This document shows, piece by piece, positions 211 through 33,276 of a stretch of 33,276 nucleotides of DNA. Position 1 is the first letter of the stretch. The number at the start of each line of letters is the position of its first letter. The notes beneath the pieces were generated by a model, which was not told where the DNA came from, did no database searches, and was given only the letters and a program-made list of their open reading frames with translations. The position numbers and the translations under genes are program-made. Source of the stretch: a virus; IMG/VR virus record IMGVR_UViG_3300025137_000010, positions 1 to 33,276 of that record; one strand, written 5' to 3'.

Positions 211-238
211 TATATAATACCAAATTAAGTATTTTTTA
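211..238 (-). promoter_or_regulatory. Candidate phage late promoter, chaperone gene
   Basis: On the minus strand TAAAAAATA (238-230) is followed by 11 nt, ATTATATA (218-211), three bases and the ATG at 207. The same arrangement precedes four other structural genes. Here a sigma70-like reading is also possible: TTGATA (242-237), 17 nt, TATTAT (219-214). It lies directly behind a rho-independent terminator. A start about 7 nt after the box would make the mRNA nearly leaderless. Confidence 0.6.
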
Positions 239-240
239 TC

Positions 241-276
241 AATAAAAAAAGAGGGACATCTACGAACCCTCTTTAA
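241..276 (-). terminator. Rho-independent terminator after the 76-aa gene
   Basis: On the minus strand AAAGAGGG (274-267) pairs perfectly with CCCTCTTT (255-248) across an 11-nt loop and is followed by a T run. It ends transcription coming from 534-304 and from the terminase direction, just before the chaperone promoter and gene. Confidence 0.85.
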
Positions 277-303
277 CTCGACTAACTAATATGAAATGAA
301 CTT

Positions 304-814: not shown

Positions 815-827
815 TTTTTTTTGATAA
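808..827. promoter_or_regulatory. Operator-like inverted repeat between divergent promoters
   Basis: TTATCAA (808-814) and TTGATAA (821-827) form a perfect 7-bp inverted repeat around TTTTTT. One arm carries the -33 TTG of the minus promoter and the other the -33 TTG of the plus promoter, so a bound repressor could block both. No cognate regulator is identified. Confidence 0.45.
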
Positions 828-847
828 CTTTTTTTTAATTATATTTG
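821..847 (+). promoter_or_regulatory. Bacteroidota-type promoter, plus direction
   Basis: TTG (821-823), 16 nt, TATATTTG (840-847), a perfect TAnnTTTG -7 element, lies just before the plus-strand ATG at 852. The spacer is shorter than usual. The expected start site falls at or near the start codon, implying a very short or absent leader. Confidence 0.45.
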
Positions 848-851
848 TTTT

Positions 852-1562
852 ATGGAAAAAATACACAAAACAGAAAAGTTCTTTTTAGATATTATTGGAA
901 CAGATAAATGGAATCAATTAAAAAGCTCTAACAAATTTAATAACGTTGAGTTTTATGAAACATATAAACATTATAGAAATAAATATAATTTAAAAATTGT
1001 AGCAGGTTCTGATTGGATATATAATAATAAAAGATATAAATATGGATCTATTAAAAAAGAAAATATTTATGTTGATAATAAAAATAATATAAAGTTAAAA
1101 CCAAATACAATATTATACTATCTATTGAGAGATGAAGAAGATGATGGTTTTCAAATCAATATAAGTAAAGCAGCTTTTTGCCCTATATTATATAAACATA
1201 TACCAGATGATGAAATTGATAAAATAAATATAAATTTTAAAGAAGTTAAATTAAAATATACACTACATAATCCATATAAAATGTATAATAACTATCTATT
1301 TTGTCATACACCAGAGAATTATAGTACTGTAATAGATGTAGATGTAATATACCAATTATATAATTTAGGCATATTTGATGAAAGAATTGTTTCTATACAT
1401 AATTGTAAAAATTGTAGAAGTAATTATGTTTACGTATATATTAATAATAAAATAGGCTCTATTAAAGTAAAATCATATGAATTATATAATTATGGTTATG
1501 GTAATACTTTATCTTATTCTTGGCATTCTGATTGTTCTAAATTAGAAAGTATTAACGTATAG
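852..1562 (+). CDS. Unknown 236-aa protein, the only plus-strand gene
   Basis: This is the only gene opposed to the rest of the genome. The protein is rich in Lys, Asn, Tyr and Ile, has no membrane segment, and carries Cys residues near its C-terminus (HNCKNCRSN, then HSDC) that could bind a metal. No family is recognised. Its codons are even more A/T-ending than those of its neighbours, suggesting separate acquisition. It has its own upstream promoter elements and its 3' end overlaps the convergent terminase gene by 11 bp. A moron-type gene (host alteration, superinfection exclusion or anti-defence) is plausible by position only. Confidence 0.7.
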   Translation: MEKIHKTEKFFLDIIGTDKWNQLKSSNKFNNVEFYETYKHYRNKYNLKIVAGSDWIYNNKRYKYGSIKKENIYVDNKNNIKLKPNTILYYLLRDEEDDGFQINISKAAFCPILYKHIPDDEIDKININFKEVKLKYTLHNPYKMYNNYLFCHTPENYSTVIDVDVIYQLYNLGIFDERIVSIHNCKNCRSNYVYVYINNKIGSIKVKSYELYNYGYGNTLSYSWHSDCSKLESINV

Positions 1563-2718
1563 CATACTTACCATAGTTAGGTTTGCTCATTAGAGAATAG
1601 GTTGCGTACCGAGTTGCGTCAGGTAAGTGATCAGCACCATCATTAGGTATGTTTGTTAATCTATTTGCTTTATCTTTTTTCCATCTATAATCTCTAAACT
1701 CTTTTATAGCATTTACAGATGTTTCTGTTATGTGTAGTTTGTATCGCTTTAACAGATCAATACCTGCCATAATACTATTCTGACCTTTTACACTTGGTCT
1801 AATATTATTACCCATTCTTTTAAGCTCATCTATTAAACGTACTTCTGCTGAATCACCAAAGCATAGCTTATTGTCTTTATTATGCTCTAGAAAGAATCTA
1901 TGTATGTCTGCTGTAGTCATCATAGTTCTGTAAAGTAATTCATTAATATATAAGTTGTGATCTTTCTGATATACCTCTACTGCACAAGTAGGATCGTTTG
2001 TATAACCAAAGTCCATACCTATAGATAAGAACTTAGCATCCTCTGGTATTTTATTTATTGTACTAAAACTAAATATTTGTGTTCTTGATAATGCTCTTTC
2101 ACCTAAACCAAATACCTGCCAATATTCATCATCAGTTTCTTTTAGTCTTTCTAGTTCGTGTATTATGTTTTTATCTATGAACGGATTGTCTTTATATGTC
2201 GTCTTATAAAATACAGCATCATCTCTAGTTTCTACTTTATCATATATCCAGTGATTGGATTCACTAGGATTGTAATCTAAAATTATTTGCCCTTCTGTTC
2301 TAAATATTAATTGCTGCCAACTATCCCAATCTATTTCATTACACTCATTAATAAATAATAAGTTTCTCTTTCTACCACGTATCTTAGCAGGTTGATCTAA
2401 TGATATAAACTCTATAGTATTGTTGTTTAGATAGTATTCGCTGTTACTCTTATTATGCTCTTTCTCACTATATAATTCATAGTTTTTTAATATATCTAAA
2501 AAGTCACGCATAACTGTACCACGTAAACTTGGGAATGTTTTACGACATATAGTTATAATATGATTTTGATTTTGAAAGCAGTAATCAAATATTATCCAAA
2601 GTAATATATTAAAAGTTTTACCAGATCTACTTCCTCCTCTTTCTATTAGTATCTTATTATCAGATCTATAAAATTTGTAAGCGTGATTAAATACAACATT
2701 AGTCTGTACTTGGTTCAT
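1552..2718 (-). CDS. terL: Terminase large subunit
   Basis: ATPase-nuclease motor that packages DNA into the prohead through the portal. Visible motifs, in order: Walker A GGSRSGKT (residues 28-35), an arginine-rich stretch before Walker B LLFINE (120-125), then an RNase H-like nuclease with acidic residues in GMDFGYTND (D236), FGDS (D289) and GADHLPDATRY (D363, D367). The length of 388 aa suits compact terminases of the PBSX/Terminase_3-like group. It overlaps the small subunit gene by 20 nt, consistent with coupled translation, and its 3' end overlaps the plus-strand 236-aa gene. Confidence 0.93.
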   Translation of the reverse strand: MNQVQTNVVFNHAYKFYRSDNKILIERGGSRSGKTFNILLWIIFDYCFQNQNHIITICRKTFPSLRGTVMRDFLDILKNYELYSEKEHNKSNSEYYLNNNTIEFISLDQPAKIRGRKRNLLFINECNEIDWDSWQQLIFRTEGQIILDYNPSESNHWIYDKVETRDDAVFYKTTYKDNPFIDKNIIHELERLKETDDEYWQVFGLGERALSRTQIFSFSTINKIPEDAKFLSIGMDFGYTNDPTCAVEVYQKDHNLYINELLYRTMMTTADIHRFFLEHNKDNKLCFGDSAEVRLIDELKRMGNNIRPSVKGQNSIMAGIDLLKRYKLHITETSVNAIKEFRDYRWKKDKANRLTNIPNDGADHLPDATRYATYSLMSKPNYGKYAIR

Positions 2719-2959
2719 TATCTTTTACAACTACTTCGAATAAAGGTGTGTCTTGGTTTAGTGTTATGTCTTGTGTTTCTCTAGGTTTACCATAAAAGTA
2801 ATTTGCATATAGTTGTGCAAACTTATAATCACCATTCTTTAAACCATTGTGTAGTACTTGTATAAATAAATCTTCCATAGGTGATAGCTTGTCTAATAAC
2901 TTAAACTCATCAGCTTTAGACTTTCTACCAGAACCATCTCTTTTACCTCCCCAACTCAT
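2699..2959 (-). CDS. terS: Terminase small subunit-like protein
   Basis: An 86-aa protein beginning MSWGGKRDGSGRKSKADE. Gly/Arg/Lys-rich starts of this type are common in small terminase or related DNA-binding proteins placed just before terL in Bacteroidota phages. The middle (LSPMEDLFIQVLHNGLKNGD, then YFYGKP) looks helical. It starts two bases after the 43-aa basic gene stops and overlaps terL by 20 nt. The role would be recognition of viral DNA to start packaging. Assignment rests on position and composition, not on a decisive motif. Confidence 0.7.
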   Translation of the reverse strand: MSWGGKRDGSGRKSKADEFKLLDKLSPMEDLFIQVLHNGLKNGDYKFAQLYANYFYGKPRETQDITLNQDTPLFEVVVKDNEPSTD

Positions 2960-2961
2960 AA

Positions 2962-3093
2962 TTAATTTCTTTTACCTTGTCCTCTATATTTCTTCTTGTA
3001 ACCTGTTTGTCCTTTACTTGCATTCTTACTGTGTACACCTTTTCGTCTTACTTTTGATTTCCTTATATAGGTGTAAATTGCATTTCTAGCCAC
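2962..3093 (-). CDS. Small basic 43-aa protein with GTG start
   Basis: This frame starts with GTG (3093-3091), reads MARNAIYTYIRKSKVRRKGV, and continues very rich in Lys, Arg, Gly and Ser to a TAA at 2964-2962, two bases before the small terminase ATG. No in-frame ATG exists, and upstream the frame runs into a stop. Small Lys/Arg-rich proteins just before terminase genes are frequent in Bacteroidota phages. A nucleic-acid-binding role is likely but unproven. Confidence 0.65.
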   Translation of the reverse strand: MARNAIYTYIRKSKVRRKGVHSKNASKGQTGYKKKYRGQGKRN

Positions 3094-3103
3094 TTGAAAA
3101 AAC

Positions 3104-3120
3104 TTGATTAATCAAAGATA
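3104..3120 (-). promoter_or_regulatory. Palindrome overlapping a TAnnTTTG -7 element
   Basis: On the minus strand TATCTTTG (3120-3113) fits the Bacteroidota -7 consensus TAnnTTTG exactly, but no TTG lies at the usual distance. It overlaps a perfect 12-bp palindrome TTGATTAATCAA (3104-3115). It is a candidate promoter/operator for the packaging genes. Confidence 0.35.
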
Positions 3121-3147
3121 TAATAAAAAAACAATACTTTTTTAATA

Positions 3148-6456: not shown

Positions 6457-6620
6457 CTTTTAATCTGTATTTTATTTAGATCATCTTTTCGTTTATCGCA
6501 ACCACAATCTTTATATCCAAAAAACTTAGATACAGCTTTTGCAATTCTTTTACCATACCCAAAAGTTACAAAATTAATTATTCTTTCTACTATGTCCCCT
6601 AGTCCAATCGTATTTTTCAT
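6453..6620 (-). CDS. Small conserved phage protein with CGC motif (55 aa)
   Basis: Frame starting at ATG 6620-6618 with MKNTIGLGDIVERIINFVTF, a basic helix (GYGKRIAKAVSKFF), then KDCGCDKRKDDLNKIQIKR and a TGA that overlaps the next ATG. The GLGD start and the CGCD + charged helix + LNK pattern match a small protein I associate with Bacteroidota phages. It overlaps the 3' end of the sigma-like gene by 47 nt in another frame. Function is unknown; the CxC may bind zinc. Confidence 0.75.
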   Translation of the reverse strand: MKNTIGLGDIVERIINFVTFGYGKRIAKAVSKFFGYKDCGCDKRKDDLNKIQIKR

Positions 6621-7131
6621 ATTCTTTTTTTATAAAATCCTTTACTTTAATGTATGTATTTCTTAATGACACATAACTAATATTAGTATCTCTACTTAGT
6701 TCTGATATTTTTCTACCATCAGATATTAATTCAAAGATTGCAATATCATACCATACTAATTTGTTTTCATAACTATCAGTAAATTCTTCAAGTTTGTAAT
6801 CTATAATATTATCATCTATTGTGCTTTTAATTCCATACTGTGCTAATGCTTCACTTAGTGCGAATGTTTCTGTATCGCTAGTAATTATAATATCTTTACG
6901 TTTTTTGTTTATTTGCTTAGTTCTTAGACAAGCGTGAAATATCATCTTATATAAATAATAATAGTTTATATCATTATCTCCATATTTTAAATCTTTACCT
7001 TTCTTTGTTAATTCATCTATCTTAATATACATTTCGGATATAATATCTTGACAATCATCATTCTGACAACCAAAAGATCTACAGATTCTTAACCAGTCTT
7101 TATGCTTTTTATATGCTATTTCAAGAATCAC
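6574..7131 (-). CDS. Sigma-70 family (ECF-like) sigma factor-like protein
   Basis: A 185-aa protein with a region-2-like N-terminus (DWLRICRSFGC, DDCQDIISEMYIKI, residues 12-38) and a C-terminal region-4-like helix-turn-helix (GRKISELSRDTNISYVSLRN, about 139-158, then TYIKVKDFIKK). Proteins of this layout would bind host RNA polymerase core and redirect it to phage promoters. The start is GTG at 7131, overlapping the helicase gene stop; no early in-frame ATG exists. It is the natural candidate to read the ATTATATA late boxes seen in front of structural genes; that link is an inference. Confidence 0.7.
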   Translation of the reverse strand: MILEIAYKKHKDWLRICRSFGCQNDDCQDIISEMYIKIDELTKKGKDLKYGDNDINYYYLYKMIFHACLRTKQINKKRKDIIITSDTETFALSEALAQYGIKSTIDDNIIDYKLEEFTDSYENKLVWYDIAIFELISDGRKISELSRDTNISYVSLRNTYIKVKDFIKKEYEKYDWTRGHSRKNN

Positions 7132-17961: not shown

Positions 17962-19731
17962 TTAAAATGCTTTACCTTTCGGTGTTTTAAAATCTTTCTT
18001 TTTATCAAAACCCCTGTTAACCATATCTCTAGGTCTTGTTGCTACTTTTTTATTGTTAGTTTCAGGTGTAAAACCTTCTTGTTTTGCTTTACTAACACTT
18101 GACTTTGATCTAGGATTTTTAGGATCAGGGCTTACTGTTTTACTCATATAAACTCTACGTTCCCAGTAGTGTCTACAAGATCCACCACCTTTATATAACC
18201 ATATATCATAAGTATCTGCTCCACCTTTTCCCCAACCTTTGTTAACTGGCTTACTAGTTAACTGTTGTATATCTTCTTTTCTATATATCTTATTAGCTTG
18301 TACCATTTTTCTACAAAACTCTCTTGTATCACCGTCAAATTCTTGTGGTGCATATTGGTATCTTACTTTATACTTCCAACCTTTTTTATTTTCACCATCT
18401 TGATCACTTTTTGCCATAGGTCTTGCAGATCCAGTAGAAGCTAATTCTAACTTTTTATTTAAGTCATCATCTATGTCATAATCTACTGGTGCTGATTCTA
18501 CTAATTCCCATTCTTCTAAATCTTCTTCTTCTCCTAAAGCAATAAACTCACCTAATGCAGTTACTTCAGATAACTCGTTTTTATCTGTCTCTACTCCTGT
18601 TTCTTCTTCTCTAGTTTCATCATCTACAATATTACCTTCTAAATCTGTAAATTCTAAAGGTTGTAATGTTTTAAAATATAAGTTTAGAGAAATATTATTA
18701 AAAGCTAGTATAGAATCTAATGCGTCTAATATATATTCTTGCTGTACTCTTATTACCATATTATCAAAGAGTATACTTGCTTGTTTTAACTCATCTGCGT
18801 TTGATCCTAAGCCATTATTTCCTGTTCTAATACCTAATAGTAGTGGCGAAGATAATCTGTGTCCTACAAGGATTTTATTTGTAGATTCATCACTTAAAAA
18901 TTGATATTGATTGTGTGCGTCAGATAATTGTACAGGATCTACAGTTGCAGCACTTTCAGAATTGTCATTAAATGCTAATATAAATTTACCAGCGTTACTA
19001 GTTCCACTAAACTTTTCATATATTCTTCTTTCTATTAATTCTCTAGCTTCTTCATCAGGAGTACCATTGTTAAAATTTAATAACATAGTGGGACTTAGTC
19101 CTGTTTGTATATTATTAATATGATAGTTTGCAACTTCTGCTTCTAACTCACAATATGGTAACGCACCTTGATATGTAACTGGTGTGTAGTAAAAATAACC
19201 TGCTCTATATGGTTTAATACACAAAATCTCTATTGCATTATTACCACTACCAAATGCAGGTATTCTTTTTGCTTCGTCTCTAGGTGTATATTTTGACCAA
19301 TCGTGGAAATAATAGAAACCTTTTATCTCACCATTTTTATCAGCTTTTTCTGCACGTAAAGTTTGTACTGGGAAATGTTCTACTTTCACAATTTTACTAC
19401 GGTCTACATTATAGTATACTTGTAATGTAGCTTGTCCTAATAAATAAAAATCAGAACATATTTTTTTTAACTCATCTTTTTTAAATAATGTTACTGCTTC
19501 TGCATAAGCCAATGGCTTTTTATTGCTGTTTGTTGCAGCTAAACCTTTACCGTATATCATTTCAGTTATACCATTAATAATTGCATTATTTGTAGGACTT
19601 CCTTGATATTGGTCTATTAGGAATTGGTAATAATTATTATCTTCACCGTATGCTACAAACTTATCTCGTTTGTTTTCTGTAATCTTTGGTGCTGTATATG
19701 TATTTAAATTTACTACTCTAATTTTGCTCAT
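17962..19731 (-). CDS. Portal protein with extra C-terminal domain
   Basis: A 589-aa protein. The N-terminal ~380 residues (FVAYGEDNNYYQFLIDQYQG, then SPTNNAIINGITEMIYGKGL, later LSSPLLLGIRTGNNGLGSNA) are portal-like: a dodecameric ring at the capsid vertex through which DNA passes. After an acidic linker rich in Glu and Asp (about 375-430), a second domain has FCRKMVQANKIYRKEDIQQL, YDIWLYKGGGSCRHYWERRV and a basic tail. Similar Cys/His-containing tails occur in portal or minor-head proteins of Bacteroidota phages. It overlaps the 143-aa gene by one base. Confidence 0.8.
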   Translation of the reverse strand: MSKIRVVNLNTYTAPKITENKRDKFVAYGEDNNYYQFLIDQYQGSPTNNAIINGITEMIYGKGLAATNSNKKPLAYAEAVTLFKKDELKKICSDFYLLGQATLQVYYNVDRSKIVKVEHFPVQTLRAEKADKNGEIKGFYYFHDWSKYTPRDEAKRIPAFGSGNNAIEILCIKPYRAGYFYYTPVTYQGALPYCELEAEVANYHINNIQTGLSPTMLLNFNNGTPDEEARELIERRIYEKFSGTSNAGKFILAFNDNSESAATVDPVQLSDAHNQYQFLSDESTNKILVGHRLSSPLLLGIRTGNNGLGSNADELKQASILFDNMVIRVQQEYILDALDSILAFNNISLNLYFKTLQPLEFTDLEGNIVDDETREEETGVETDKNELSEVTALGEFIALGEEEDLEEWELVESAPVDYDIDDDLNKKLELASTGSARPMAKSDQDGENKKGWKYKVRYQYAPQEFDGDTREFCRKMVQANKIYRKEDIQQLTSKPVNKGWGKGGADTYDIWLYKGGGSCRHYWERRVYMSKTVSPDPKNPRSKSSVSKAKQEGFTPETNNKKVATRPRDMVNRGFDKKKDFKTPKGKAF

Positions 19732-20162
19732 TAGCTTATTATTATATAGTCATCATCAGGATAACTTGTTGTTTCTGTATATACTCCGTTGTTAATTGTG
19801 TAATAGTCATTGTTTGATTGATCTATTGTTTGATCAGTACAAAATACTTTATCTAAATATACATCATTTTCAGATGAAATTATATTTTCCCAATTTTCTG
19901 TAGCTGCTTCCCATTTAGTTGTAAATTGATTCCACAAAGCACCAATACCTTCTATAATTTTTAAATCATAAAACCTACCTTCTACTAATGTGTATGTAGT
20001 AGATACTGTTGCATTGTCTTTTACTCTTGTTAATGTTACGTTTTGTGTTCTAGTAGTAGTATTAGTGCTGTTATCTCTTATAGATACAGTAACACTTGAC
20101 GGATATGCTCTCGGTGTAAATGTTAATGTTTGTGCAGCAGCACTAGTTGTTAGAATCTTCAT
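19731..20162 (-). CDS. Structural protein upstream of portal (143 aa)
   Basis: Beta-rich protein starting MKILTTSAAAQTLTFTPRAY, with Thr-rich strands (SIRDNSTNTTTRTQNVTLTR) and an acidic Tyr-rich end. Proteins like it lie next to portal or tail genes in Bacteroidota phages and are probably virion components; function unknown. It is the first gene after a terminator and has the A-tract / ATTATATA / ATG late-promoter arrangement, so it opens the portal transcription unit. Confidence 0.65.
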   Translation of the reverse strand: MKILTTSAAAQTLTFTPRAYPSSVTVSIRDNSTNTTTRTQNVTLTRVKDNATVSTTYTLVEGRFYDLKIIEGIGALWNQFTTKWEAATENWENIISSENDVYLDKVFCTDQTIDQSNNDYYTINNGVYTETTSYPDDDYIIIS

Positions 20163-20165
20163 AAT

Positions 20166-20193
20166 TATATAATAAAAAAAAACTTATTTTTTA
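20166..20193 (-). promoter_or_regulatory. Candidate phage late promoter, portal unit
   Basis: TAAAAAATA (20193-20185), 11 nt, ATTATATA (20173-20166), three bases, ATG at 20162 on the minus strand. It begins only a few bases after the T tract of the terminator at 20198-20229. Same architecture and spacing as the copy before the chaperone gene. Confidence 0.65.
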
Positions 20194-20197
20194 CATA

Positions 20198-20229
20198 ATA
20201 AAAAAGGGAGATTATAAAACCCCCCTTTC
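20198..20229 (-). terminator. Rho-independent terminator after the major tail protein gene
   Basis: On the minus strand AAAGGGGGG (20228-20220) pairs with TCTCCCTTT (nine pairs, two of them G-U) across a short A/T loop, followed by a T run. It lies 24 nt after the major tail protein stop and just before the next candidate late promoter. Confidence 0.85.
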
Positions 20230-20253
20230 TAAACACACAAAAACAAAAAACTG

Positions 20254-20826
20254 TTATGCTGTTGGATCTATTTGCGTTGAACTTTCTAACGCAGTAACTA
20301 CCGATCCAGTTATAAATAACGGTGGTATTACTTCCGTTGCAGTAAACGTCAATGTGAAACCACTTAAATCTGCATATGCTGCACCACTAACAATAGTTCC
20401 TGCAGTTAATTCAGCTCCTTGATGGAATCCGATCATAAAATGATTAGCACTATTATCTGTGTCAGGATTAACACTAGAACTCATTACTCTATTGTTGTCC
20501 TGTACTACAATGTGTGGTCTTGCAGCTGCTATTAGTTTTATTTCTTCTTGCGTTGCTGCGTCTAAATGTGTAAACGTCAATTCTAAAGTTGTTTCATAAA
20601 CTGTAGTACCAGTATCTCTTGAACTAATAATGTTAGTTGTCATAGAACTAGTAGCACCTTTTAAGTCATATTGAAAAAATACAGGTGTACCTGATAATGC
20701 AGATATATTTCCTGATGAAATACTTGCAGCACCTAATGTACCGTATTTTGCCATATATACTTTGCCTAATCCACCTACTGATTGTTTACAAGGTATTTTT
20801 CTTCCTGTTGTTAATGTACAAGCCAT
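20254..20826 (-). CDS. Major tail (tube) protein
   Basis: A 190-aa protein beginning MACTLTTGRKIPCKQSVGGL, with VYMAKYGTLG, GTPVFFQYDLKG, a TTVYETTLELTFTHLDAATQ segment and IVSGAAYADLSGFTLTFTAT near the end. This is the pattern of the major tail protein of Bacteroidota siphophages: a beta-rich subunit whose hexamer rings stack into the tail tube. Strong terminators before and after isolate it as its own high-expression unit, as expected for an abundant structural protein. Confidence 0.78.
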   Translation of the reverse strand: MACTLTTGRKIPCKQSVGGLGKVYMAKYGTLGAASISSGNISALSGTPVFFQYDLKGATSSMTTNIISSRDTGTTVYETTLELTFTHLDAATQEEIKLIAAARPHIVVQDNNRVMSSSVNPDTDNSANHFMIGFHQGAELTAGTIVSGAAYADLSGFTLTFTATEVIPPLFITGSVVTALESSTQIDPTA

Positions 20827-20835
20827 ATCTTATTT

Positions 20836-20877
20836 TTTTAAAAAAAAAGGTAGATAGTATAATGCCACCTACCTTTT
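20836..20877 (-). terminator. Rho-independent terminator after the major capsid gene
   Basis: AAAAGGTAG (20877-20869) pairs perfectly over nine bases with CTACCTTTT (20853-20845) on the minus strand, followed by a long T run. It separates the major capsid gene from the major tail gene. Confidence 0.87.
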
Positions 20878-20896
20878 ATTGTTATACAATTATTTA

Positions 20897-21826
20897 TTAT
20901 GAATAAAGAACAATATCAGATCCGATACCGTGCTGTATTCCTGCTGTAAATCTCATTACAACTCTTACGTTTTGAGATCCATCAATGTCTGCCATATCAA
21001 TTACTTTTACTTGGTTTTGATCTGACATTAGACCAGTTCCAAAGAATAAGTTTGATTTTTGAGCAGCTACCATAGTATCACTTGCTAATCCAGAAGCTAA
21101 TATAATTTGTAAACCATCATAACTTAAAGCGTTAGCATTTGAATACCACTGTGTTCCTTTAGAGTCAGTACCTGCAGCACCTAATCCGTTAGCAGCGAAT
21201 CCACCTAATGCTCTAATATAGTTTCTATAAATATTACTAGGTAGATATATAGCTAAATCTTCATTACCATAAACACTTGATGGAATAGCGTCTGCTATTT
21301 TACCAATCTCTGCGATAACGTTTGCTGCAGTACTTGCTTGACCTGCAACATCCACTACATCACCGTCTGCTAGTAGTGTTGTTCTAAATCCATCAAATTC
21401 ACCTGCGTTAGCGTTTGTACCATTCCAAATGTTTTGCTCCATTTTTTGTGCTACCTTATCTGCAACGTGTGCGATTAAAAAGTCACTAAATTGTGGAGGT
21501 AAATTATCAAATGCTGAGTAACCCATTTGTACTGCTTCCCAATCTGATTGGAAATCTTGCTTACATAACTGTAGATTTACTTGAAATTCTTCAGGTTGTA
21601 ATATTCTCTCTGTTAGAGTAAGTGTAGATGTAGGATCAAAGTCACAGCTAGAATTTTTTACAATTCCGTCTGTTGCTACTTTTTTCATTACTTGCTTAAA
21701 CTTTACATTAGGAACTACTGTAATATTTCCTTCAGCTAAAGTTTTACCACTCAATAATGCTGCCGAGATATACTTTCCTGCAAACTCACCTGCATATGTT
21801 GTTGTTAAATTATTAGTTGTTGCCAT
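20897..21826 (-). CDS. Major capsid protein
   Basis: A 309-aa protein (MATTNNLTTTYAGEFAGKYI) with features of HK97-fold capsid proteins of Bacteroidota phages: an N-arm, a long-helix region around VADKVAQKMEQNIWNG, a segment DLAIYLPSNIYRNYIRALGG, and a closing MADIDGSQNVRVVMRFTAGI then QHGIGSDIVLYS. It assembles the icosahedral shell. It is flanked by the decoration-like gene (24 nt upstream) and a strong terminator, and follows scaffold and protease genes, the usual head-module order. Confidence 0.87.
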   Translation of the reverse strand: MATTNNLTTTYAGEFAGKYISAALLSGKTLAEGNITVVPNVKFKQVMKKVATDGIVKNSSCDFDPTSTLTLTERILQPEEFQVNLQLCKQDFQSDWEAVQMGYSAFDNLPPQFSDFLIAHVADKVAQKMEQNIWNGTNANAGEFDGFRTTLLADGDVVDVAGQASTAANVIAEIGKIADAIPSSVYGNEDLAIYLPSNIYRNYIRALGGFAANGLGAAGTDSKGTQWYSNANALSYDGLQIILASGLASDTMVAAQKSNLFFGTGLMSDQNQVKVIDMADIDGSQNVRVVMRFTAGIQHGIGSDIVLYS

Positions 21827-21850
21827 TTTAAATTTTATTATTTATTATTA

Positions 21851-22267
21851 TTATAGTTCCCCTACTGTTATTGATGAAGCTGCGTTACCATTACCTGATA
21901 AATAAAAGCTAGTACCATCACTTGATATATTTACGTGATCTCCAATGCTTTCTGCACCATCTTCAAAAGTTACTTGATCTACTGCGTCAGCTTCTACGAT
22001 TGCACCGTTTACAATCACACCACCGTTTAGAATATCTCTATTGTCAGCAGGTGTTTGTACAACACAATCAGTTGAAAATGCAGCAGCTACGATAAACTTT
22101 GCACTCCATCCTGCTGTAGGAGCAGGTAATGTTACAGTATAACCTGTACCACTTATTAGGAATGTCTTTCCTGAATCTGCAGCAGCTAATGTTGTTGCAG
22201 CAGTTAGCGTTTCTTGTTTAGAGAAAATTCTACTAACGTCATTTGAAATAGTTGTTGTTGTTGACAT
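21851..22267 (-). CDS. Capsid decoration / head-fibre-like protein (138 aa)
   Basis: Small, Ala/Thr/Gly-rich beta protein (FSKQETLTAATTLAAADSGK, FLISGTGYTVTLPAPTAGWS). Proteins of this composition placed just before the major capsid gene in marine phages are usually decoration or head-fibre proteins on the capsid surface. The A-rich leader TTTAAAATG resembles that of the capsid gene. Assignment rests on position and composition. Confidence 0.6.
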   Translation of the reverse strand: MSTTTTISNDVSRIFSKQETLTAATTLAAADSGKTFLISGTGYTVTLPAPTAGWSAKFIVAAAFSTDCVVQTPADNRDILNGGVIVNGAIVEADAVDQVTFEDGAESIGDHVNISSDGTSFYLSGNGNAASSITVGEL

Positions 22268-22286
22268 TTTAAATTGATTTTAATTA

Positions 22287-22910
22287 TTATTTAGTTATTG
22301 CTTGTAATACTCTATTGTAAGTAGTATTCTGATTTGAATTCGTAGCATATCTTGCACCAAGTTTTGTATCTTCTGTTTCAGGAGAATGTTTAATTCCTTC
22401 TGAAGCAGGTTTAGACAATTCTTCTTGCTTTGCCATTTCTTCTTTTTCTTCTTTCTTATCCATCATTTTTTCAATGATTTCGTTTAGTTGTCCCTTAACT
22501 TCTTCCACAGATTCTGCTAAAGCTGTAAGTTCGTCCTTAGTTGCATAATTCATTTCTGATTTTTCTTCTTCTTCTTGAATTGGTGCTTCTTCTAAATTAG
22601 TATCTTCTACTGCAGTATCTGCTGTATCTTCTACTACTTCTGAATTTTTGATTTCTTCAATCATACCTTCTGTTTTAACGATTAATATTCTATTGTCTGA
22701 TAACTCATATTCTCCTATTGGTAAGGGTACATCTTCGTCATCTGTTTTAATAAATACTTCATTACCTGTTTCAAATTTGTCAGCAGATAATACTGTACCA
22801 TTCTCTAAAGTAATTTCTTCTAAAGAAACACTTTCTAGCTTTACGTCTACATTACTAGGATCAACTCCTAATAAAGTTTTGACCTTTGATAATATCTCTG
22901 TAGCATTCAT
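22287..22910 (-). CDS. Scaffold / head assembly protein (207 aa)
   Basis: Acidic protein with a small beta domain at residues about 1-85 (LENGTVLSADKFETGNEVFI, LPIGEYELSDNRILIV), a Glu-rich linker, a coiled coil (TKDELTALAESVEEVKGQLN, about 123-160) and a polar end. The domain order matches head-assembly scaffolds before the capsid gene in Bacteroidota phages. It would guide capsid assembly and be degraded by the prohead protease. The ATG has the ATTATATA box three bases upstream, so it opens the capsid transcription unit. Confidence 0.72.
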   Translation of the reverse strand: MNATEILSKVKTLLGVDPSNVDVKLESVSLEEITLENGTVLSADKFETGNEVFIKTDDEDVPLPIGEYELSDNRILIVKTEGMIEEIKNSEVVEDTADTAVEDTNLEEAPIQEEEEKSEMNYATKDELTALAESVEEVKGQLNEIIEKMMDKKEEKEEMAKQEELSKPASEGIKHSPETEDTKLGARYATNSNQNTTYNRVLQAITK

Positions 22911-22913
22911 AAC

Positions 22914-22941
22914 TATATAATGAATAGAGTAATTTTTTTTA
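22914..22941 (-). promoter_or_regulatory. Candidate phage late promoter, scaffold/capsid unit
   Basis: TAAAAAAAA (22941-22933), 11 nt, ATTATATA (22921-22914), three bases, ATG at 22910 on the minus strand. Same layout as four other copies in this genome. Confidence 0.6.
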
Positions 22942-22960
22942 TATTTTCAAACCGTATTTT

Positions 22961-23098
22961 TTAAACACGACCTATTCCTTGTGCTTGTATAGATCCATCA
23001 CAGCATTTACGACTATACGTATTGTCAGGGCATAGACAAGCACGTTTACTGCTTTTAGGTGATGTTCTACTAGGTGTTTTATTTGGTTTCTTTGGCAT
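22961..23098 (-). CDS. Small Cys-rich phage protein (45 aa)
   Basis: ATG at 23098-23096: MPKKPNKTPSRTSPKSSKRA, then CLCPDNTYSRKCCDGSIQAQ and GIGRV before a TAA. The basic N-terminus plus CLC...CC...QGIG is a pattern I associate with small proteins in the head modules of Bacteroidota phages. The four Cys may bind zinc. The ATG overlaps the stop of the 11-codon ORF (TAATG). Function is unknown. Confidence 0.72.
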   Translation of the reverse strand: MPKKPNKTPSRTSPKSSKRACLCPDNTYSRKCCDGSIQAQGIGRV

Positions 23099-23133
23099 TA
23101 CTTACAAATACAAAAATCGCAGTTACAGTTCAT
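23098..23133 (-). CDS. Eleven-codon Cys-rich mini-ORF
   Basis: ATG at 23133 encodes MNCNCDFCICK then TAA. It starts three bases after the protease gene stop and its own stop overlaps the next ATG, so it sits exactly as a coupled translated unit would. The two CxC pairs could hold a metal. It may equally be just a coupling leader for the 45-aa protein. Confidence 0.4.
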   Translation of the reverse strand: MNCNCDFCICK

Positions 23134-23136
23134 AGT

Positions 23137-24312
23137 TTATCTTTTTATTGGTACACAGTTAGGAACTCTCTTACCATTCTTCATTTTAGTTCCATACATT
23201 TCATATCCTGCTTGACAAGGTTTCTTAAGTTCTTCTTCTTCATTGTGTGTTTTGCAGGGCATATACCAATCTTGATCTTCAAAGTTATGTACGTGGTGTC
23301 CTTCACAACCTATACTCTTTGCTATTTCATCTGCTTTTTCAGGAGTACTATATGCTAAACGGTCATCTATTATAGCAAACTCATCATTTATCTTTTGTGA
23401 ATATAATTTAAGTTCATTCATTTTACCTCTTGCCCAATTCTTTGCAGACAGTCCACCCCATAATAAGTATGAAATAGTACCACAAGACTTAGAATCATTT
23501 GGATCATAATATTCTTCTGCTCTAGATAAGTAGCTGTACATTCTTTTAATTGTATCTACGCTTATCTTTTCTCCCTTTGCTAATTGCTGTGCTCTAATCT
23601 TACCTACATCTGTTGCACATTTATTATTTATACTTTCATTTAGCTTAATACCTCTTTTAGCATTATTCTTTACAGATTGTGGATAATCGTTGTATGATTC
23701 TAGTGTAACTCTAACTCCTGAAACTATATCTTTTATGTTTGCTAATAAATATTCAGCTTCTTTCATTTCTATAGCTGATAAATTAGATTCTTTTTTTGCA
23801 GACTTATCTTGAAAATAACCTTCTATTGAAAAACCTTTTACTGCACCTGTTTTAACAAACTCCTGCCATACCTTATCAGAATGTACTTTTACAGATCCTA
23901 CCCAAGTACCTACTGGATATTTTAATCCGTAGAATGCAGTCTTATCTTTTTCTGTATCTTCTACAATCCAAGATTCTACTAAGCTTAAACCTTTTAATTG
24001 CATTTGGTGTTCTAGTGTTGCATTGTTTTGGTTACCTTCCATTAAATACAACTCACTTGCTTTACGCACAGTATCTTTAGAAAAGTATATGTAATACTCA
24101 CCTTCTTCACCCATACGTAAAATAGGTTTATTAGGTATTAGTAATGCACCTAACAATATGCGTTTCTCATCATCTACTTCAGCTAATTTATATTCTACTT
24201 CTTTATTAAGTGTAATGAAATCTTCTTCTATTGCAGGTTTCTCTACTATTGATATAGCTTCTATACCTGAATACTCTTGTTCTTCGTCTAAAATAAGTTC
24301 TACAATTCTCAT
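23137..24312 (-). CDS. Prohead protease, XkdF-like, with C-terminal extensions
   Basis: A 391-aa protein. The N-terminal ~165 residues (MRIVELILDEEQEYSGIEAI, SIVEKPAI) match the phage serine protease XkdF type (Peptidase_S78_2), with likely catalytic His102 in ATLEHQ and Ser162 in VKGFSIEGYF. Then comes a helical domain (ATDVGKIRAQQLAKGEKISV, YLLWGGLSAKNWARGKM) often fused to phage proteases or portals, and a Cys/His-rich end (GCEGHHVHNFEDQDWYMPC) with NGKRVPNCVPIKR. It would process scaffold and capsid precursors. The ATG has the ATTATATA late box three bases upstream. Confidence 0.82.
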   Translation of the reverse strand: MRIVELILDEEQEYSGIEAISIVEKPAIEEDFITLNKEVEYKLAEVDDEKRILLGALLIPNKPILRMGEEGEYYIYFSKDTVRKASELYLMEGNQNNATLEHQMQLKGLSLVESWIVEDTEKDKTAFYGLKYPVGTWVGSVKVHSDKVWQEFVKTGAVKGFSIEGYFQDKSAKKESNLSAIEMKEAEYLLANIKDIVSGVRVTLESYNDYPQSVKNNAKRGIKLNESINNKCATDVGKIRAQQLAKGEKISVDTIKRMYSYLSRAEEYYDPNDSKSCGTISYLLWGGLSAKNWARGKMNELKLYSQKINDEFAIIDDRLAYSTPEKADEIAKSIGCEGHHVHNFEDQDWYMPCKTHNEEEELKKPCQAGYEMYGTKMKNGKRVPNCVPIKR

Positions 24313-24315
24313 AAT

Positions 24316-24343
24316 TATATAATAATTTAATTTATGTTTTTTC
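24316..24343 (-). promoter_or_regulatory. Candidate phage late promoter, protease gene
   Basis: GAAAAAACA (24343-24335), 11 nt, ATTATATA (24323-24316), three bases, ATG at 24312 on the minus strand. The A-tract touches the stop codon of the tape measure gene, so the promoter fills the whole intergenic gap. Confidence 0.6.
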
Positions 24344-26115
24344 TAAATTCCACTTTCACTAATAATATTTCTATCTAATTGTTGTGCTGTTGTTACATCA
24401 CCTGACACTACAAAAGCTTTAACTGGTTGTTGGTTGTTTAGTGTTTCTGCTATTTGGTTTAACGGTGACGATCCTACGACATTAAACGCAGGTGCTTGTA
24501 CTGATGGTATTGAAGCTGCTGCTCCTTGCACACCTGATGATCCTGCTCCAGTTGGTGTTTTTGTACCTACTATACCTTTAACTGCAGAAAACCCTGCTGT
24601 TAATGCTGTAGCAAATCCTATTAAACCTAATGGAAAAAATGGTTTACTATCTAATGCTGTAGTCGCTGCTTTGTAAGTACTCATTATAGCTTCTGCTGTT
24701 AATGCTGCTTTTGCTGCTACACTATTTTTATTTAACGCACCTGCTATTGCATTTAAACCTTCTTTAGCTAGATTAAATTTCATATCTGCTAATTGTTTGT
24801 CTAGTAATGCTTCTTCTGCATTTGATTCTTTTACAAGTTTATTTTTCTCTTTTTGTGCTTCTTTAAATTTAGCTGAATCTTTTTCTAACAATTCTTCTTG
24901 CTTAGCAAATACATCTAGTGCTAATTGTTTTCTTGCTTCTGCTGCTGCTTTTTGTATTTCTAATTTTTTAAATTCATTGTCTGTTAAATTAATTGCTGAC
25001 TGTCTTTCTATTTCTTCTGAATCAAATTTTTGTTGTAATAAAACAGTTTCAAGATCTAATTTTTCTTGTATTAAACTTATTTCATTAACTAATTGTTCAG
25101 ATCTTTGTCCACCTAATCTTTCTTCTATTTCTGCAACTGCTGCTAATGCTCTTATCTGTTCAGCTTGTAATTTAATATCTTTTTCATTGTTTGCAAGTGC
25201 TGCATCTGCTGCTGCCAACGCTACTTCTGCTAATGTTTTTTCTTGTAATATACCTTTTTCTAATATTTTCCCTAATTCTTGATTGGCTTTTATTCTTACA
25301 TCAATATCTTTACTAACATCATCTCTTATTTGTCTTTGTTCTTCAGCTGATTGTAAATTTGTTATTCTAAGTCGTTCTTGATTTGCAGCTGCTAACTCGG
25401 CAGCATTTGCAAGTCTTACTTGTGCTGTAGCTCCTTTTATTGCTTCTTCTGTAACTTGTTTTATTGTAGATGCTACTTTTTTTGTTACATCAGCTACTTT
25501 ATCAAACGTTCCATCAACACCAGTAAAAGTATCAATTAATTCTTTACCTGCTTCTTTTGCTGATTCTGCTGCTCCTGCAAAATCTCCTTGAAACACTTTT
25601 TGTATTGCATCTCCTAAAAATCCTATTGCTTCTAATGCAGATTCAAACTTTTCTATAATGTTTGCTTTAATTGCAGCACCTAAATCTTTAACACTTTGTA
25701 ACGGATCTTCAAATATTGATTTAAAAAACCCTACAACTTTATCTGAGTTATCTAAAACAAAATTAACAAATACCGTAAAAACATTTTTTACTGATTGTAA
25801 AGCTATAGCGTAAGCATCAGCAACTTCTTGATTACTAAAGAATACATCTTTCAAAACATCAAATGCTTCTTGTGCTAGTTTTACTGGTATGCTTTTAAGT
25901 GCTAAAGCAACTCCTGAAAATCCTTTTTTTACTTTTTCAACAGTACCTTGAAGATTTTTAAAACCTTTTGCAGTATTACTTGCTGTTTTTTTTGCACTAT
26001 CTTCTACACTTTCAACAGATTTTTTTAAATCAGTAAACTGTTCACGTATGTCTTGTATGTCTTGTTGTGCTTTCTTAAGATCTACTTCTAGTTCTATTGT
26101 TTTTTTGACTGCCAT
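24343..26115 (-). CDS. Tail tape measure protein
   Basis: A 590-aa, mostly helical protein. N-terminal coiled coil (LEVDLKKAQQDIQDIREQFT), hydrophobic segments at about 70-180, a long Ala/Glu/Lys-rich helix at about 230-450, a hydrophobic Gly/Ala segment (FFPLGLIGFATALTAGF), and an end (SVQAPAFNVVGSSPLNQIAE, then VSGDVTTAQQLDRNIISESG) characteristic of Bacteroidota phage tape measures. It sets tail length and may aid DNA ejection. Its ATG lies inside the 50-aa gene (22-nt overlap). The size is modest, suggesting a fairly short tail. Confidence 0.82.
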   Translation of the reverse strand: MAVKKTIELEVDLKKAQQDIQDIREQFTDLKKSVESVEDSAKKTASNTAKGFKNLQGTVEKVKKGFSGVALALKSIPVKLAQEAFDVLKDVFFSNQEVADAYAIALQSVKNVFTVFVNFVLDNSDKVVGFFKSIFEDPLQSVKDLGAAIKANIIEKFESALEAIGFLGDAIQKVFQGDFAGAAESAKEAGKELIDTFTGVDGTFDKVADVTKKVASTIKQVTEEAIKGATAQVRLANAAELAAANQERLRITNLQSAEEQRQIRDDVSKDIDVRIKANQELGKILEKGILQEKTLAEVALAAADAALANNEKDIKLQAEQIRALAAVAEIEERLGGQRSEQLVNEISLIQEKLDLETVLLQQKFDSEEIERQSAINLTDNEFKKLEIQKAAAEARKQLALDVFAKQEELLEKDSAKFKEAQKEKNKLVKESNAEEALLDKQLADMKFNLAKEGLNAIAGALNKNSVAAKAALTAEAIMSTYKAATTALDSKPFFPLGLIGFATALTAGFSAVKGIVGTKTPTGAGSSGVQGAAASIPSVQAPAFNVVGSSPLNQIAETLNNQQPVKAFVVSGDVTTAQQLDRNIISESGI

Positions 26116-26246
26116 TTAATTTCAGTTTTAAATTGGTTATACGCTTCCTTTATACTATTAGGTAGTTTGTATTTACCTTTAGCAATCTGCACTATCTCAC
26201 TTTTGCTCTTAGAATATTTTAATAATTCTATTATACTATGAATCAT
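26094..26246 (-). CDS. Small 50-aa gene directly before the tape measure
   Basis: ATG at 26246-26244: MIHSIIELLKYSKSKSEIVQ, then a basic helical remainder ending KWQSKKQ. It overlaps the tape measure start by 22 nt in another frame. It carries the A-tract / ATTATATA / ATG late box. Function is unknown; the position suggests a small tail-assembly helper. Confidence 0.6.
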   Translation of the reverse strand: MIHSIIELLKYSKSKSEIVQIAKGKYKLPNSIKEAYNQFKTEIKWQSKKQ

Positions 26247-26249
26247 ATC

Positions 26250-26277
26250 TATATAATAACTTTAATTTGTTTTTTTA
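26250..26277 (-). promoter_or_regulatory. Candidate phage late promoter, tape measure unit
   Basis: TAAAAAAAC (26277-26269), 11 nt, ATTATATA (26257-26250), three bases, ATG at 26246 on the minus strand. The A-tract includes the TAA stop of the 1427-aa gene. Confidence 0.6.
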
Positions 26278-32908: not shown

Positions 32909-33276
32909 ACCACTGAACTAAAACAAACATCTAATGGCATATCTTTCATAGTATCACTTTCTAATCCTTCGTAGTCAACTATGTTATACTTCTCCTTATG
33001 TTTTTGTGCTATTGGTCTATAGAGCACGTTCATAGCTTTGTGCATTTCGTCCCAATTTTGCATAAAGGTTTCTATGTCTACGTATTCTCCTAATGATATA
33101 TCTTCTAACACTGGTATAAAACCATACTCTAAGTTGTTTAGTTTAAACTTATGTATTAAGTCAGGTTTAATTTCTAAGATCTCATTTAGTATTGCTACTA
33201 TCTGATTTATATCTGTGATCTTAATTTTAAAAGTATCTTTCAGATCTATACCACAAAATATTTCAATCATTTTCTG
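32725..33276 (-). CDS. Tail assembly chaperone, frame-0 C-terminal part (open at window end)
   Basis: Continuation of the gene that starts at 207; in this copy the 5' end runs off the window. Codons MPLDVCFSSVVFFYNLGIEL contain the T9 slippery run at VVFFY. Without slipping, translation ends GGGGIQQFTNSLKEVLQNSR followed by a short tail, giving 219 aa in all. The internal Met at 33270 is not the true start, since the frame is open through it. The ratio of short to long product normally matters for tail assembly. Confidence 0.85.
   Translation of the reverse strand, partial: QKMIEIFCGIDLKDTFKIKITDINQIVAILNEILEIKPDLIHKFKLNNLEYGFIPVLEDISLGEYVDIETFMQNWDEMHKAMNVLYRPIAQKHKEKYNIVDYEGLESDTMKDMPLDVCFSSVVFFYNLGIELSSNMMDYLTDQEMENLSTEQLNSIKGGGGIQQFTNSLKEVLQNSRISLGRN
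33178..33276. repeat. Terminal direct repeat, right copy (contig overlap)
   Basis: Exact copy of bases 1-99. Removing one copy gives a circle of about 33,177 bp in which the chaperone gene is intact. The 99-base length resembles an assembly k-mer overlap; this is an inference. Confidence 0.9.

Follow-up and report, generated by a model that had tools for sequence, protein, structure and literature searches.

Late promoters of phage T4 (TATAAATA) are read by the sigma factor gp55, lack a -35 element and need the sliding clamp along with gp33. The promoters of group 4, or extracytoplasmic function (ECF), sigma factors, among them SigH of Mycobacterium tuberculosis and SigR of Streptomyces coelicolor, combine GGAAYA, a distance of 17 bp and GTT at -11 to -9; in the case of SigH the -35 element GGAAYA occupies -34 to -29, the -10 element is formed by G-11, T-10 and T-9, and a 17-bp spacer works best (PMC6411747). 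For Flavobacterium psychrophilum SM6, a CGT box at -10 was attributed to host ECF sigma factors (PMC9723704), and the late promoters of phage AR9, AACA-6N-TA/G, are used by a phage multisubunit RNA polymerase (RNAP) (PMC5312081). Here we describe a two-part element, an A-tract followed by the octamer ATTATATA, in front of virion genes in a 33,276-nt stretch of viral DNA (IMG/VR record IMGVR_UViG_3300025137_000010; the window). This element probably represents a phage-specific late promoter that recruits core RNAP with a phage sigma-like protein and gives leaderless starts. Judged by its relatives, the source is probably a small marine phage of Flavobacteria-type bacteria, the host of the cultured relative being flavobacterial.

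Common to the proposed system and T4 would be the use of a phage sigma factor with host core RNAP for late genes as well as an A+T-rich -10 octamer; however, the octamer of the window differs from TATAAATA, and a -35-like part is conserved. The resemblance to AR9 consists in an AACA element ahead of phage late genes, but AR9 differs by its multisubunit reader, by an element located near the start site and by leaders of 26-491 nt.

The two-part element in the window

At five minus-strand gene starts (207, 20162, 22910, 24312 and 26246) an A-rich 9-mer is located at -31 to -23 and ATTATATA at -11 to -4. All five boxes and A-tracts named in the original prediction, which had been made from the sequence alone, are present exactly at these offsets. 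The accompanying claim that the arrangement exists at no other gene start has to be amended because of a sixth dyad (3144-3117) before the terminase genes, which surfaced in a dyad search without an ATG requirement. The six copies are:

211..238, minus strand: candidate promoter P1, TAAAAAATA at 238-230, 11 nt, ATTATATA at 218-211, 3 nt, ATG at 207
20166..20193, minus strand: candidate promoter P2, TAAAAAATA at 20193-20185, ATTATATA at 20173-20166, ATG at 20162
22914..22941, minus strand: candidate promoter P3, TAAAAAAAA at 22941-22933, ATTATATA at 22921-22914, ATG at 22910
24316..24343, minus strand: candidate promoter P4, GAAAAAACA at 24343-24335, ATTATATA at 24323-24316, ATG at 24312
26250..26277, minus strand: candidate promoter P5, TAAAAAAAC at 26277-26269, ATTATATA at 26257-26250, ATG at 26246
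3117..3144, minus strand: sixth copy, TAAAAAAGT at 3144-3136, 11 nt, ATTATATC at 3124-3117

Every 8-mer at every offset before the 45 open reading frame (ORF) starts was counted, with dinucleotide-preserving shuffles as the control. The most repeated positional 8-mer was ATTATATA at -11 (5 of 45 starts). In 400 shuffled versions of these regions no 8-mer recurred at a given offset in more than 3 starts, and the control suggested along with the original prediction thus confirmed the arrangement. The record contains six occurrences of ATTATATANNNATG: five are on the minus strand at these gene starts, and the remaining one, on the plus strand (1481-1494), was rejected as a chance match inside an ORF and without an A-tract. 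When up to one mismatch was allowed, 15 matches to ATTATATANNNATG were obtained, compared with 4.9 +/- 2.0 expected, and none of 100 shuffles reached this number. Among 71 unique dyads of A-tract and ATTATATA in the fetched loci of related phages, an ATG followed 3 nt on in 51 and 5 nt on in five, the corresponding control with seven permuted octamers behind the A-tract yielding an ATG at +3 in 1 of 115 cases. About a dozen matches of A-tract and box within coding sequences of relatives were discarded as chance hits under a loose A-count rule. Generic sigma-70 hexamer scans were uninformative, the sites being no more numerous than in shuffles.

With respect to gene organization, P1 opens a head-completion/tail unit that includes the 207 gene across the window ends and then the genes from 32655 to 26275. 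The ends (1-99 and 33178-33276) are identical and form a 99-bp direct repeat, so that the 207 gene extends into the opposite end; the genome unit, 33,177 bp long, is circular or terminally redundant. P2 precedes a 143-aa gene, the portal gene (17962-19731) and tail genes, P3 a 207-aa gene, the 22267 gene and the major capsid gene (20897-21826), and P4, the A-tract of which overlaps the end of the preceding gene, an XkdF-like (Peptidase_S78_2) protease gene (23137-24312). P5 is followed by a 50-aa ORF (26246-26094, phrog_32183) and the gene of a 590-aa virion protein (24343-26115); since the two overlap, P5 serves the pair. The start at 26246 thus has its element as predicted, but what it opens is this short ORF overlapping the next large gene.

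The statement that two sites directly follow terminators proved correct, and about 30 nt between these terminators and the ATGs at 207 and 20162 provide room for a restart of transcription:

240..282, minus strand: intrinsic terminator directly upstream of P1, 8-bp stem and U-run, -10 kcal/mol, z -2.4
20201..20230, minus strand: intrinsic terminator directly upstream of P2, -15.1 kcal/mol, z -3.6

The element was rightly regarded as distinct from the host promoter, as the sigma-A consensus of Bacteroidota, TTTG / TAnnTTTG, is matched by 0 of the 6 copies.

In the sixth copy, which lies 23 nt ahead of a GTG-started ORF, a start codon is lacking at +3; a neighbouring start codon is therefore no defining part of the element. 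This copy serves the following genes:

2962..3093, minus strand: basic 43-aa ORF that heads the terminase unit; it starts with GTG here and with ATG or TTG in relatives
2699-2959, minus strand: terS, small terminase, by position and orthology
1552-2718, minus strand: terL, large terminase, by homology to phage terminases

Conservation and dialects in related phages

A set of 80 viral contigs with 925 ORF starts, fetched with the capsid protein, was used for comparison. The octamer ATTATATA was detected at -11 of 105 of the 925 starts, in addition to 25 occurrences at -37, 10 at -19 and 7 elsewhere, and the search in related phages proposed with the original prediction recovered the box before orthologs of the same genes. 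It is present at -11 in 44 of 49 ORFs orthologous to the 20162 gene, in 33 of 73 for 24312, in 28 of 76 for 22910 and in 16 of 45 for 26246, and at -11 of no other ORF homologous to window genes in the 80 relatives, including those for the major capsid, portal and 590-aa virion proteins. The orthologs align from the first residue, and the starts are therefore genuine. Orthologs of the 207 gene with the dyad were found in G004, G012, G021 and G022, and in five contigs (L012, L016, L019, L045 and L056) the A-tract and the box before the 26246 ortholog are displaced together by 2 nt. No clear copy of the motif was seen in the clade L114-L120, which has a sigma-like protein about 40% identical (except L119); these contigs contain few late genes.

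The terminase copy is kept in five contigs (G003, G004, G012, G021 and G022), in each case followed by TTGATWAATCAAGTTTTTTCAAG (TTGAATAATCAAG in two of them), and the same small protein comes after it in the relatives, with ATG, GTG or TTG as the start codon. The leader of the terminase promoter in the window (3091-3116, minus strand), TTGATWAATCAAGTTTTTTCAAG, is strikingly conserved in these five contigs. Folding of the palindrome-like leader TTGATTAATCAAG at the terminase copy was no better than that of shuffles.

Many relatives without ATTATATA show an equivalent pair in front of the same genes and in an unchanged register, and in all of these dialects the box is located at a nearly constant distance from the ATG. 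The dialect of G006-G019 is GGAACA/AAACA with GTTATATA or GTTATTTA. In relatives, AAACAAAATA...GTTATTTA stands before the protease gene, and GGAACAATA or GAACAATAAT...GTTATATA before a small gene that follows a terminator-like T-run. The window pair TAAAAAATA / ATTATATA aligns to AACAAAATA / GTTATATA, with changes at -31, -29 and -11. Contig G025 uses CAAAATA...CGTTATAT at three starts. Cultured relatives are the Nonlabens (Persicivirga) phages P12024L/S of the genus Inhavirus, the major capsid protein of which is 31% identical to that of the window phage. P12024L carries AAAACAAA with CGTTAATATA-like boxes, the pairs consisting of AAAACAA and then CGTTAAT or CGTTATT, before seven genes:

P12024L, genes bearing the candidate promoter: gp01 (protease position), gp05 (before portal), gp08, gp37 (shortly before terL), gp42, gp45 and gp46

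The dialects of P12024L and G025 were also recovered by the unbiased positional count without a prior. P12024L thereby matches the layout of the window phage and likewise encodes a Sigma70_r2 protein (gp35), but it differs by its dialect AAAACAAA...CGTTAATATA, by a sigma protein that is about 14% identical and by promoters that are unannotated in its record.

A comparison with ECF promoters revealed AAC-type -35 elements, 16-18 nt to GTT, and GTT at -11 to -9 in clade B and P12024L, provided that the A of the ATG is taken as +1; moreover, the two-domain sigma-like proteins of the phages (159-216 aa) resemble ECF sigma factors in layout. Clade B and P12024L thus display the ECF-type combination of an AAC-containing -35 element and a GT-type -10 element separated by 16-18 nt, which the window copies do not. 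In contrast to ECF promoters, the window clade has TAAAAAA at -35 and ATTATATA at -10 (G-11 changed to A), the phage +1 would coincide with the start codon, and the protein is remotely related in sequence to ECF sigma factors. The CGT(T) -10 box of P12024L and G025 resembles that of F. psychrophilum SM6 in the same host phylum; however, the SM6 promoters form a host regulon mostly with leaders, whereas the phage elements stand at a fixed distance from the ATG and form dialects of their own.

The major capsid protein is 75-83% identical between the window clade and G006-G019, compared with 46-57% for the portal protein and 24-29% for terL; judged by these identities, the capsid gene is mosaic between the clades. 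Given major capsid proteins that are about 80% identical, the sigma gene, which shares about 22% identity between clades A and B, might seem to have switched together with the dialect in otherwise similar genomes; this idea was rejected, since terL and portal diverge too. As the gene-by-gene table contains the capsid gene as the exception to this divergence, the correlation between sigma and dialect is not specific to sigma.

Several further observations were made. In P12024L (L122; 2980-3031 and 5365-5412) the small antisense genes gp04 and gp07 have apparent host-type promoters (TATATTTG) which overlap, head-to-head, the late promoters proposed for gp05 and gp08, a layout resembling an early/late switch. 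G025 contains two genes of the 143-aa (20162) type (2295-2714 and 35713-36132), each with its own late-type promoter, and this duplicate is possibly a terminal overlap or a duplication. In the window, a perfect host-type promoter TTG-N16-TATATTTG is located at 821-847 (plus strand), 4 nt before the ATG of gene 852-1562, the only large plus-strand gene, and an equal arrangement exists at 20428-20463 of P12024L; by the numbering of F. johnsoniae, with G at -5 (PMC6847099), the transcript of gene 852 would also be leaderless. A strong terminator (20845-20877, minus strand) follows the major capsid gene, and the next gene (20826) has no late promoter; this terminator may be leaky and set the ratio of capsid to downstream gene expression. 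A search against Rfam detected no RNA family in the window.

The sigma-like protein as candidate reader

The original prediction had pointed to a sigma-like protein of the phage as a possible reader:

6574..7131, minus strand: 185-aa sigma-like protein with a putative C-terminal helix-turn-helix, proposed reader

The structural model of this protein contains helices at residues 2-75 and 92-173 and a low-confidence (disordered) linker at 77-103, and its size and layout fit a two-domain architecture of regions 2 and 4 with a linker (about 160-200 aa). Of 25 contigs searched, 17 encode a relative of the protein and the other 8 are short or partial, and a sigma-like gene is present in every near-complete relative examined, being the sole regulator found in every group. 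A search of the phage collection with tblastn gave no match to the 185-aa protein, even at E 0.1. With respect to domain profiles, gp35 of P12024L matches Sigma70_r2 (Pfam) with 25.2 bits, above the cut-off of 24; the PF04542 scores are 10.8 bits for the window protein and 21.4 bits for that of L119 (cut-off 24), and the Sigma70_r4_2 matches in L112 and L114 are below the cut-off. The profile phrog_1740, 'RNA polymerase sigma factor', matches 7 of 15 family members. Residues of about 98-175 of the model align with sigma region 4 of SigE, AlgU and others (Z 8-9, root-mean-square deviation 2-5, 70-78 residues), and the top Foldseek matches of the model are ECF sigma factors, at E-values of 0.025 or worse.

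The best PDB profile match is 1h3l, annotated as a sigma factor, and the conserved segment of the family, NxxYxYxxxxNxxxD, aligns on the 1h3l segment AWLYRILTNTFIN. Residues W81, I85, N88, I91 and N92 have been named in SigH, N92 contacting the -11 base pair (PMC6411747), and the placement of the conserved segment on 1h3l fits these five residues. At the position of SigH N92, R or H is present in 8 of 8 phages with A-11, and D (8), S (2) or T (1) in the eleven with G-11. This link between residue 92 and base -11 is suggestive, although no proof, of sigma and promoter having changed together.

Proposed late transcription and competing explanations

From sequence we infer the reader, the start site, the late timing and the leaderless translation. 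The A-tract at -31 to -23 of the ATG would act as the -35 element and ATTATATA at -11 to -4 as the -10 element for host core RNAP carrying the phage sigma-like protein (6574-7131), which would act like a two-domain ECF sigma factor: region 4 would read the -35 element, and region 2 would melt and read the -10 element. Made by early or middle transcription, the protein would then join host core RNAP at the six sites, which would open five transcription units comprising most virion genes as well as the terminase unit. The phage GTT is located at -11 to -9 when the A of the ATG is counted as +1, and if the phage sigma factor shares the ECF register, transcription is predicted to start at this A. 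The five mRNAs would hence begin at the A of AUG as leaderless late mRNAs, in line with the original prediction of starts at or near the ATG, but the terminase mRNA from the sixth copy would carry a leader of about 20 nt. Two constraints agree with a start at the ATG: at 207 and 20162 about 30 nt separate the terminator from the ATG, and if transcription began downstream of the ATG, the genes would be destroyed.

A reader other than the 185-aa protein, either a host alternative (ECF) sigma factor or sigma-A together with a phage co-activator, is unlikely. Such a reader would be in keeping with the several ECF sigma factors of Flavobacteria and the ECF-type promoter class with a CGT -10 box in F. 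psychrophilum (PMC9723704), and the dialect follows the whole phage genome, not the sigma gene alone. However, the box differs from the TAnnTTTG element of the host, the dialects vary between phages and are uniform within each, which suggests a reader travelling with the phage, and the sigma-like gene remains the sole regulator found in every group. There is very little probability that the element is an operator through which a phage repressor or activator acts on ordinary promoters overlapping it: a bipartite conserved site could be bound by any regulator, but the dyad lacks symmetry, keeps a single orientation relative to the gene and matches -35/-10 spacing, while the short stretch downstream of the terminators shows no conserved promoter besides the dyad and no other DNA-binding protein was recognised among the scanned proteins.

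Equally remote is the explanation that the element aids translation initiation, as an A-rich unstructured 5' untranslated region with an AU-rich start context in Bacteroidota devoid of Shine-Dalgarno (SD) sequences. The fixed distance to the ATG and the A-rich sequence would be expected from such an element, and Bacteroidota without SD motifs benefit from A-rich upstream positions in initiation (PMC6847099). Against this stand the absence of a start codon at +3 of the sixth copy, the joint shift of A-tract and box relative to the ATG, the complete lack of the element at further genes within the same operons, among them the major capsid gene, and its position between terminator and ATG at two genes. 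Because of the sixth copy, the abutting terminators and the common displacement by 2 nt, the element is regarded as a DNA promoter and not as a translation signal.

Several points weigh against the proposed phage-specific late promoter and its reader. The window 185-aa protein on its own stays under every Pfam cut-off and has no convincing family match; its model is of middling quality (pLDDT 72, pTM 0.43; Foldseek E 0.025 or worse), and Z values of 8-9 are common among helical folds. The link between residue 92 and base -11 may reflect a single evolutionary event, there being one A-11 clade, and the dialect tracks the whole genome backbone, as terL and portal diverge along the same split. Additionally, five leaderless units would be unusual, leaderless mRNAs being a minority in the likely host group: they amount to 5.5% in F. 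psychrophilum (PMC9723704), and 87% of the leaders in F. johnsoniae exceed 10 nt (PMC6847099). On comparative evidence, a phage late promoter read by the sigma-like protein, as originally proposed, is nevertheless the best-supported reading.

A phage sigma factor for late genes is of a known kind; what sets the present case apart is its ECF-like arrangement, the fixed coupling to the start codon and the dialects that run in parallel. No description of these promoters was found in the open-licence literature searched. We lean towards the broader view that a lineage of small marine phages expresses most virion genes from leaderless mRNAs by means of a phage ECF-like sigma factor and a start-codon-locked promoter, which would have drifted together into at least four dialects, the residue facing -11 changing with the base. 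If this is true, a compact ECF-like sigma factor combined with start-codon-locked leaderless promoters would constitute a distinct expression strategy in a phylum in which leaderless mRNAs are rare. The dialects would provide a natural series showing how sigma factors and promoters change together, and P12024L, the host of which is cultured, makes the question of sigma and promoter testable. Moreover, the motif would offer a means of finding late operons in contigs of uncultured marine phages.

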